Below are positions 22,260 through 24,930 of a stretch of 64,000 bases of DNA, piece after piece. The stretch spans positions 1 to 64,000 of the forward strand of contig JANQLT010000081.1 in NCBI GenBank assembly GCA_028280455.1, given 5' to 3'. Made by a program: the position numbers and the translations under genes. Each line of letters begins with the position of its first letter. The stretch's first letter is position 1. This DNA comes from Kiloniellales bacterium. GTDB taxonomy: Bacteria; Pseudomonadota; Alphaproteobacteria; Kiloniellales; JAKSDN01. The notes beneath the pieces were generated by a model, which saw only the letters and a list, made by a program, of their open reading frames with translations, was not told where the DNA came from and ran no database searches.

Positions 22260-22360
22260 GGTCCGGAGGGGATTGGCTTCTTGGCCAAGGCCTGCCGCCG
22301 TTCAAGCAGATCTACATTCGATTGAGAGATCCGATTCACACACGTCTCTACTCTACGGGC

Positions 22361-22627
22361 TTAAAGCGCCGTCAGAGTCAACTCGCTCGAGCCTTCGATG
22401 CGGAGAACACAAGGCAACTGGGACAGAGCATCGATCTGCTCTCGCGAGAGATTTGCCGTAAACAACGTCGCTCCCGCCTTCCCTGCTCTGACCCCTAGCT
22501 TGCTGATCGAAGCGAGATCGGCGTGCGAGGCTGGCGCCACCAAGCGAACGAACACGGGACGGGGTCGCTCACCATCGTCCGGCTCGAACTGCAGCGTCAG
22601 CAGCGGGTCTATTTTCGCGTGGTCCAT
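22361..22627 (-). CDS. Small propeptide/I9-inhibitor-like protein paired with subtilase
   Basis: An 88-residue protein encoded 93 bp downstream of the subtilase on the same strand. It has no signal peptide and its predicted order is beta-alpha-beta-beta-alpha-beta: VFVRLVAP, a middle helix, LFTANLSREQIDALSQL, then VLRIEGSSELTL. This resembles subtilisin propeptides and free I9 inhibitors. It also resembles residues ~45-108 of the neighbouring subtilase itself (shared VFVR, GV, T-x2-L, final I-x3-S-x2-L). I infer a dedicated inhibitor or chaperone acting in trans. Base composition is less GC-rich than the window average. Confidence 0.65.
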   Translation of the reverse strand: MDHAKIDPLLTLQFEPDDGERPRPVFVRLVAPASHADLASISKLGVRAGKAGATLFTANLSREQIDALSQLPCVLRIEGSSELTLTAL

Positions 22628-22720
22628 CTCTCTAGTCCGTAAGTGATCGCTGTTCGAAGGCTTGAGAACACGACGCTCACCGACATAGTCGCTGCGACTT
22701 TCCCCAAGTCACATCAGCCA

Positions 22721-24463
22721 TTATAGGTTGCCTGCATTGATCAATCCATAACCCCATTTCGGGTCAAATGCGCCAGCCGCTTGGCCAGGAATGGCCGATA
22801 CGGCCTGAAGGTCCTGCTTGGCCTGAGCCGGCGTCAGATGACGGTTCCGCTCCAGCATCAGGGCCACCAAACCGGTGACCACGGGGCAGGCCATGCTCGT
22901 TCCGGCGTTGACCCGAAAATCTGCCGTAATCTTCATGCTGTCCGAGACAGAAGCGGCCGACGAGAAGGGCGCCACGACGAAAGCCCCTGGCGCAGCGAGG
23001 TCCGGTTTCCGGGCCAAGTCACGCAGCGGACCTTCGCTGGAGAAGTCCGATATCGTGTTGAGCGGGAGGCTGGTGCCGCGCGCGTCTCCGTTGATGTCGG
23101 TCCAGTTGCTGCGAGATGTGTAGGAGGCCACGGTAATGGCTTCTGCCGCGCAGCCTGGGGAGCCAATCTTCAGGCGATCTGTTGCAGCTCTCCCCCGGAA
23201 GGTGACGTCGCTGAACCGGTTGTTGTCGAGCGCCCAAGCATGGAGCTCGCTGTCGGGCCCGGCGACGCCCCGCACGTGGAGTCTCCAAGTGCCGGCCGCT
23301 GCGGTGAGCGTTGGCGGACCGCCATCGATTACCACCACGGCATTGTGATCGCCGTTTGCAGCGTTCGGGCCGGGCGTGAGGAGCCTTACCCTGTCGGTTC
23401 CCAGAAAGAAGGTCGCCAGTTGAGTGCCGCCTTGCATGATCCCACGAAAGGGAGTCTGCAGCCCGCTGGGCGCTGACACGGCGATCTCGGCGGAAGTCTG
23501 ACCCGAATACCAAGCGTTGACGATCGCTTTGCGGGTGCCGGAAGGCACACGAAACTCGATCGTCTCGGTTTGGCCGACGGCAATCTGCGCTTCGGCGTGT
23601 ATGTCGTCGTTACCCTCGTTGCCTGCCGCACAGCAGACAATTCTCCCGGGGCCGCTCTCGTTGTCGATGATCGAGGACAGGCCGTCGCTGCCGTCGTGGG
23701 CATCGGAGTGGCCACCGAGACTGAGGTTCACAACGGCAGGCAGCTCTAGGTCCTTTGCAACGCGAAAGACATAGCGGACTCCGTCCGCGACATGCGCGTT
23801 GTTCATGTCGGTTTTGACAACGACCAGCGTTGCACCCGGAGCGATTCCGGCGAACTGGGGATGGGCGCCGGCAGCGATACCGGCGACGTGCGTGCCGTGT
23901 CCGTTGGCATCGGCCGATCCGGCTAGATGCCCCGCCGTGAACTCCTGTCCGTAGGCACCCTCAGGGACGCCCGGTCCACCGGGTATTGTCTGATCCCAAA
24001 TCCGAGAGATCCGGTTTGCGAAAGCGGTATGGGCCGGGTCAATGCCGCTGTCGACGATGCCGACAACAACGTCCTTGCCAACGCTTGGACCATGATTCTG
24101 CTGGTATGTGGGCATGTCGATCTGCGACGGGACGATATCCATCAATGGACGTAGTTGGTGCGAGCCGAGGATCTCTTGGATGCCTGGCTCCTCACTCAGA
24201 TAGGGCAGTGCCTCCAACGGCAGAATGGCTGTTCGGACCTCCCCAGCTGGGGAATTCACCACCACGCCTTGCTGCTCCAATGGCGCAAAATCCTTGTCGT
24301 TGTCGCACCGGACAAACACGACCGATCGGGCAGGGCGAGCACTCGCCAAGTCCTCGCCGACGATGCCAAGTGGACCCAGCATCCGGGCAACTTCTTCCAA
24401 TTCCTGCGACGTCCAATCCTCATATGCGGTCAGCAATGAGGGAGAAACGATTTCATCGCGCAT
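22721..24463 (-). CDS. S8-family subtilisin-like serine peptidase without signal peptide
   Basis: A 580-residue protein. An N-terminal propeptide-like domain (about 45-110) is followed by the S8 catalytic domain with complete triad: Asp in VVGIVDSGID, His in GHGTHVAGIAAG, Ser in NAGTSMACPVVTG, plus the oxyanion Asn in CCAAGNEG. A ~150-residue beta-rich insertion sits between the Asn and Ser motifs (about 290-440). There is no signal peptide or Tat motif, so it may stay in the cytosol or leave by an unusual route. It lies in a lower-GC islet between denD and the dehydratase, with a clear sigma70-like promoter upstream. The small I9-like gene follows it. Confidence 0.92.
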   Translation of the reverse strand: MRDEIVSPSLLTAYEDWTSQELEEVARMLGPLGIVGEDLASARPARSVVFVRCDNDKDFAPLEQQGVVVNSPAGEVRTAILPLEALPYLSEEPGIQEILGSHQLRPLMDIVPSQIDMPTYQQNHGPSVGKDVVVGIVDSGIDPAHTAFANRISRIWDQTIPGGPGVPEGAYGQEFTAGHLAGSADANGHGTHVAGIAAGAHPQFAGIAPGATLVVVKTDMNNAHVADGVRYVFRVAKDLELPAVVNLSLGGHSDAHDGSDGLSSIIDNESGPGRIVCCAAGNEGNDDIHAEAQIAVGQTETIEFRVPSGTRKAIVNAWYSGQTSAEIAVSAPSGLQTPFRGIMQGGTQLATFFLGTDRVRLLTPGPNAANGDHNAVVVIDGGPPTLTAAAGTWRLHVRGVAGPDSELHAWALDNNRFSDVTFRGRAATDRLKIGSPGCAAEAITVASYTSRSNWTDINGDARGTSLPLNTISDFSSEGPLRDLARKPDLAAPGAFVVAPFSSAASVSDSMKITADFRVNAGTSMACPVVTGLVALMLERNRHLTPAQAKQDLQAVSAIPGQAAGAFDPKWGYGLINAGNL

Positions 24464-24506
24464 GGCTTATGTCCCCCAGGAGGCCGAAGGTAGTTTTCAA
24501 CGACTT

Positions 24507-24535
24507 TTATAACGTTTGATGATAAAGAAATACAA
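24507..24535 (-). promoter_or_regulatory. Putative sigma70-type promoter for the subtilase gene
   Basis: On the minus strand, TTGTAT (24535-24530) is followed after 17 bases by TTATAA (24512-24507), in an AT-rich patch that stands out in this GC-rich window. It lies about 45 bp from the start codon at 24463, with a GGGGGA ribosome-binding-like stretch closer in. Prediction only. Confidence 0.5.
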
Positions 24536-24930
24536 TTACTAATAAATATAGTGGCGAACCGGAGAACGGAAACTGGGATGGGTCCCATAGGTCGGTTAGC
24601 CATGCGAGAAACCGCCCGAAGGCTGGGCGAGATAGGCCAACGAGTGCGCTCGATTGGAGCGGCGGCGCCTTTGGCTAAGCGCGAAGACCGTCTCGCCGGC
24701 CCCAAGCACAACCGTCCCCATCGTCATTGCCTCTGCCTGCCCGACCGGGGCGGCTGGTCCTCGGCGCGCTGTGCCCGGTTTGGCTCTGCATCACGCAGCC
24801 GATACTGAACCTCTTCGCAAATGTCATGGCGGGCTCTAGCGTGGAGACCTAGACTTCGAATCAGTCGGGCGTTGTCAGTGCGACCGATCCAATCGTTATA
24901 ACCGACAGAAGTATGCGGAGGAATCCAGGC
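24536..24930. other. Gap with no supported gene
   Basis: About 400 bp between the subtilase promoter and the dehydratase start. Short open frames occur on both strands (for example 24551-24808 plus), but none has a convincing ribosome-binding site or recognisable motif. The left part is AT-rich, the right part returns to chromosomal composition. It could be the decayed edge of the inserted islet. The GGAGGA at 24917-24922 belongs to the dehydratase start at 24931. Confidence 0.5.

Follow-up and report, generated by a model that had tools for sequence, protein, structure and literature searches.

The window analyzed here (64,000 nucleotides of contig JANQLT010000081.1 from a Kiloniellales bacterium, assembly GCA_028280455.1) carries two adjacent minus-strand genes, one for an S8 subtilase and, downstream of it, one for a small protein (Table 1). 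The protease matches Peptidase_S8 of Pfam (E = 7.7e-41), and its triad (D138, H189, and S523) and oxyanion Asn (N282) are unchanged across eight relatives. An in-frame TAA lies one codon 5′ of the protease ATG (the open frame amounts to 581 codons) and therefore leaves no possibility of a signal peptide; moreover, neither the window protease nor its eight paired relatives contain a signal-like hydrophobic stretch (the best 12-residue Kyte-Doolittle mean within the first 60 residues is 1.7). The intact triad and the stop codon just before the ATG bear out the description of a signal-less subtilase in the initial annotation and, as judged from the sequence, the protease is presumably cytosolic.

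Table 1. Features of the subtilase/small-protein locus (positions in the window)
Feature	Position	Strand	Details
S8 subtilase, CspB-like architecture	22721..24463	minus	580 aa; D138/H189/S523 and N282 invariant in relatives
Prodomain-like N-domain of the protease (cis)	24140..24331	minus	approximately residues 45-108; homology to the small protein and modeled strand/helix order
Beta-rich insertion in the catalytic domain	23228..23599	minus	approximately residues 289-412; secondary structure of the model and alignment with CspB (PMC3567191)
Free-standing prodomain homologue, candidate I9-type inhibitor	22361..22627	minus	88 aa
Intergenic gap between the two genes	22628..22720	minus	93 bp; 64-205 bp in eight other pairs
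Foreign segment between epimerase and IlvD/EDD-type dehydratase genes	22260..24912		GC content 0.54-0.62, versus ~0.70 in the flanks

The small protein had been proposed to be a free copy of the propeptide-like domain of its neighbor, and both pairwise and profile comparisons confirm this. Between the two window sequences, residues 25-83 of the small protein align with residues 49-104 of the protease at 32% identity (BLASTP, E = 5e-4). An hhalign comparison of 9 small proteins with 18 N-domains yields a score of 60.2 (96.9%, E = 1e-10), far above those of 150 column-shuffled alignments (at most 13.7) and of the reversed alignment (8.6). Along the whole protease alignment, the high score is confined to the N-domain, and a profile built from small proteins only, without any protease, matches the N-domains of S8 proteases at other loci. 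As to the shared positions listed in the initial annotation, the resemblance stands above chance, but the motif common to both C-terminal ends reads I-x2-S-x2-L (I77/S80/L83 in the small protein and I98/S101/L104 in the protease) rather than I-x3-S-x2-L.

Searched as a single sequence, the small protein has no above-threshold match in Pfam, NCBIfam, PADLOC, the PDB (phmmer), or PHROGs. Its Inhibitor_I9 score is 12.1 bits, below the Pfam gathering cutoff of 21.2, and two of the nine family members produce any match to Inhibitor_I9 (best E = 0.091). When the PDB is queried with the family profile, the highest-ranking sequence, 8c4x_B (E = 0.019), is that of a subtilase propeptide. The structure model of the small protein (pLDDT of 58.5) has a strand-helix-strand-strand-helix-strand order, as in subtilisin propeptides, and subtilase propeptides rank first in Foldseek and VIA-align comparisons, with the fungal inhibitor POIA1 among the matches. 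An I9-like fold is, then, predicted for the small protein alone at modest confidence. Other ferredoxin-like folds, such as Cas2, score within 1 Z of the top matches; because such folds are common and unrelated ones score nearly equally, we regard the fold as supportive and let the sequence homology bear the claim. The alignments behind the structure models were shallow (plasmid-derived rows were left out), and the mean pLDDT of the protease model is 59.7, so the architecture alone was taken from it.

By both sequence and predicted fold, the top match of the window protease is to the CspB, CspA, and CspC proteins of clostridial germination, with CspB foremost (4i0w is matched over the full length at E = 2.8e-28; identity is ~24% when the folds are aligned). 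CspB has a prodomain and a jellyroll insertion of ~130 aa in its catalytic domain, for which the low-confidence model of the window protease shows a strand-rich counterpart. The protease nonetheless falls outside the curated Csp germination families, reaching 104 bits against an NCBIfam cutoff of 1250 for CspBA and 69 against 675 for CspC. Unlike the Csp system, the window-type pair has a separate prodomain gene, is hosted by Pseudomonadota and one actinomycete, and has no sporulation genes seen nearby.

In the window genome, the pair is a recent insertion, as is evident from its GC3 (0.70, versus 0.96-0.98 in neighboring genes) and from two relatives (G003 and G007) in which the same epimerase and dehydratase genes lie 0.75 and 0.2 kb apart with neither gene between them. 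The insertion is not bordered by any convincing repeats or target-site duplications. A third relative (G001) has other genes at the epimerase-dehydratase site, and a comparison with L134, L135, and L137 revealed a 215-aa ORF in the gap in L134 and an MBL-type hydrolase plus a haem-motif ORF in L135; since its contents differ among relatives, the gap could be a site of variable content. For the 93 bp separating the two genes of the pair, the idea of a conserved RNA element was considered and rejected (fold z-score of −0.47), and promoter and terminator scans at the pair gave uninformative output.

The protease and small gene together form a rare, horizontally moving two-gene unit. Small genes, 11 in all, were recovered from Actinomycetota and several groups of Pseudomonadota, and all but one directly follow a gene for an S8 relative. 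The exception, on a Leisingera plasmid (L138, 4950-5216), is an orphan beside insertion sequences, with remnants of an IS3-like transposase upstream at the expected site of the protease. A tblastn search of plasmids with the protease recovered an Embleya (Actinomycetota) plasmid with a protease of 44% identity and, next to it on the downstream side, a small-protein homologue of 93 aa, as well as more distant proteases on plasmids of Rhizobium, Agrobacterium, and Sphingobium, each followed by a hypothetical gene of 84-92 aa belonging to the small-protein family. A protease search of 337 genomes of the class added a further pair (G242) and a protease without a small gene (G154), and a blind search of 388 genomes of the phylum with the small-protein alignment returned new small genes in G736 and G538, each with an S8 relative immediately upstream (E = 1e-228 and 1e-221). 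In R. etli Mim1, both genes are present in unchanged order, and the cis N-domain occurs in all nine paired proteases. Close relatives were found neither in 143 related genomes (queried with the protease) nor in the 337 class genomes (queried with the small protein); a scan of contigs with the single protease sequence returned a remote Chloroflexi subtilase only, and phage collections contain relatives of the protease, with no small gene found in them. On the Embleya plasmid (L010, 5073-5564), a gene of peptidase-inhibitor family I36 precedes the protease but is read from the other strand, possibly by chance.

Two proteases of this lineage, one from Paenibacillus (in which an IS3-family transposase gene lies ~30 bp downstream) and one from a Bacillus-type prophage, have no small gene, although the S8 tree puts both of them, together with G242, within the paired group of rhizobial type. 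The small gene is, therefore, not indispensable everywhere. Consistent lack of the small gene among homologues, which the initial annotation had named as evidence against its reading, thus applies in part, to these two. On the prophage contig (L045, 2916-6125), the protease sits beside amidase and holin-like genes and is possible lysogenic-conversion cargo.

A tree of the cis and trans domains (resting on ~60 well-aligned columns) cleanly separates the nine trans copies from the nine cis copies (support of 95/99), with matching inner branching. Distances among small proteins correlate with those among proteases (r = 0.78; Mantel P = 0.001), such that the survey of pair conservation that had been proposed finds the two genes not only kept together but also co-diverging. 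A single early split between cis and trans copies followed by losses appears to fit these sequences best. The S8 tree sets the window/Embleya and rhizobial lineages apart, with unpaired lineages between them, and we also considered whether the small gene arose independently in the two; a second origin is possible given the ~60 aligned columns, but the cis/trans tree, by grouping all trans copies, argues against it.

How the small protein might act is suggested by several known proteins. Stand-alone I9 inhibitors (POIA1, yeast IB2, Arabidopsis SPI-1, Toxoplasma MIC5, and Plasmodium SUB1-ProM) are, like the protein described here, small, separate, and propeptide-like; in fungi, plants, and apicomplexan parasites, separately encoded mimics of this sort inhibit subtilases potently (PMC6993865). 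SUB1-ProM, in addition, is encoded next to subtilase genes and imitates the propeptide of the enzyme it targets. These inhibitors are all eukaryotic, whereas here the arrangement is a bacterial two-gene unit that recurs beside a protease with a similar N-domain, and inhibition is predicted. The prodomain of CspB stays on the enzyme once autoprocessing is complete and obstructs its active site, an effect also obtained when the prodomain is added in trans (PMC3567191). In an alignment to subtilisin propeptides made by eye, the C terminus would fall no more than two residues from the expected P1 in seven of the nine small proteins, and an aliphatic residue would occupy the expected P4 in eight of the nine.

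On the strength of trans blocking in CspB, the known mimics, and the P1/P4 fit, we favor, as somewhat better than an even prospect, a mobile module in which the small protein, as an I9-type inhibitor, blocks the active site of the protease in trans. Also in favor of this reading are the homology to the cis N-domain, the propeptide-like fold matches, the conserved pairing, the separate cis and trans clades, and the survival of a lone small gene in Leisingera. By analogy with CspB and the subtilisins, the N-domain of the protease would serve in cis as a folding aid and first plug. The sheet of the small protein would pack against the protease, with its C-terminal tail lying in the active-site cleft in the fashion of a cleavage product, and would keep the enzyme silent once the cis domain is cut or displaced; the enzyme would be released once some signal led to removal, titration, or degradation of the small protein. 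Weighing against this reading are the weak structure models, the missed I9 cutoff, and the existence of unpaired relatives. In addition, a protease that already contains a prodomain in cis needs some extra reason for a second inhibitor.

The main rival is that the small protein acts as a trans-acting foldase, promoting the folding or maturation of the protease with no lasting inhibition. Prodomains are generally folding chaperones, that of CspB included (PMC3567191), and the constant gene order beside the protease fits such a role. A precedent is ASP of Aeromonas sobria, a subtilase whose separately encoded chaperone, ORF2, replaces the propeptide; ASP is secreted and is described as lacking a propeptide and depending on the external chaperone (cited in PMC9549277). 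The window protease, however, has its own N-domain and no signal peptide. Because paired proteases retain a full cis N-domain, unlike ASP, and because close relatives without the small gene keep intact triads and so presumably fold, we judge the foldase role unlikely.

Another option is that the small protein is a regulatory or structural partner that does not block the active site; as a subunit for sensing or scaffolding, it would instead take the place of the cis prodomain or vie with it. CspB, CspA, and CspC act together, with CspC and CspA reported to form a signal-sensing heterodimer (PMC12880746), and the family alignment shows a shortened segment around helix 1 in rhizobial-type small proteins, which implies an altered surface. 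Yet the known stand-alone copies of prodomains are inhibitors, and chain ends so near the expected P1, as read by eye, also speak for blocking, which makes a nonblocking role highly improbable.

Inhibition would also underlie a toxin-antitoxin or defense module, which is mechanistically the favored trans inhibition plus a killing function: a toxic protease, held by the small protein as its antitoxin, would be freed upon phage infection or module loss. SgiAT (PMC10954446) and the S8/AAA pair of mycoplasmas (PMC8562856) provide proven cases of an S8 protease acting as an intracellular toxin, and the pair described here occurs on plasmids, is recently inserted in the window genome, and has an S8 relative beside lysis genes in a prophage. 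IetAS/SgiAT and the mycoplasma pairs resemble the window pair in having a mobile, signal-less S8 protease (PMC10954446, PMC8562856), but their partner is an AAA+ ATPase rather than a prodomain-like protein; no AAA+ ATPase gene adjoins the window pair, whose neighbors are the epimerase and dehydratase genes, and IetS models match the general catalytic core only of the window protease (at most 39 bits). The defense role suggested earlier receives no support from the surroundings. Among ten neighbors of the pair scanned in the window, PADLOC detected no convincing defense protein (one response regulator matched SduA weakly, at 18 bits), and ten genes scanned in the vicinity of the Embleya, G242, G736, and G538 pairs gave no convincing defense match. 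This lack of defense genes and the existence of relatives without the small gene count against a toxin-antitoxin or defense function, for which the lone Leisingera small gene is neutral, and we consider such a function rather unlikely. Its most novel form, in which a new mobile toxin-antitoxin or immunity module joins a cytosolic subtilase toxin to a free copy of its own prodomain as antitoxin, split once in an ancestor and kept beside the protease across phyla, strikes us as doubtful.

MBL-fold, caspase, and SduA-domain genes were seen solely beside more distant S8 lineages that have no small gene. On three rhizobial plasmids (L032, 3596-6927; L033, 3344-6825; and L035, 3437-6840), an MBL-fold hydrolase directly follows an S8 protease, with caspase-family or SduA-domain genes near this S8/MBL pair in two of the three; these are possibly a subtilase version of protease-activated nuclease pairs (PMC12799240). 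Any resemblance to such antiviral nuclease-protease pairs and to Canu (PMC12799240) resides in these distant relatives, which, in contrast to the window pair, have no small gene; the window pair, for its part, has no MBL-fold gene beside it. Three rhizobial plasmids with the pair (L011, 6124-7725; L012, 6295-7899; and L013, 6061-7665) encode a PLD-domain protein after it; that of L013, the one scanned, weakly matches the NAL1 N-domain at its N terminus (below cutoff) and DrmC models in its PLD part. In L040 (3397-5721), an S8 relative without a small gene is followed by an ORF that, judged by eye from its start, resembles a radical-SAM protein, in what is perhaps a peptide-maturation cluster.

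We found no description in the open-access literature of a conserved bacterial gene pair comprising a subtilase and a trans copy of its own prodomain; stand-alone prodomain inhibitors have been described in fungi, plants, and apicomplexan parasites (PMC6993865). The parts of the pair are thus known, and its chemistry probably is as well; what is new is their conserved arrangement in bacteria. The pairs on rhizobial and Sphingobium plasmids place it in tractable bacteria suited to direct testing. If inhibition holds true, the pair would illustrate, in compact natural form, how a cis prodomain turns into a trans regulator; it would also supply specific subtilase inhibitors and be a candidate module of controlled proteolysis moving between bacterial phyla.
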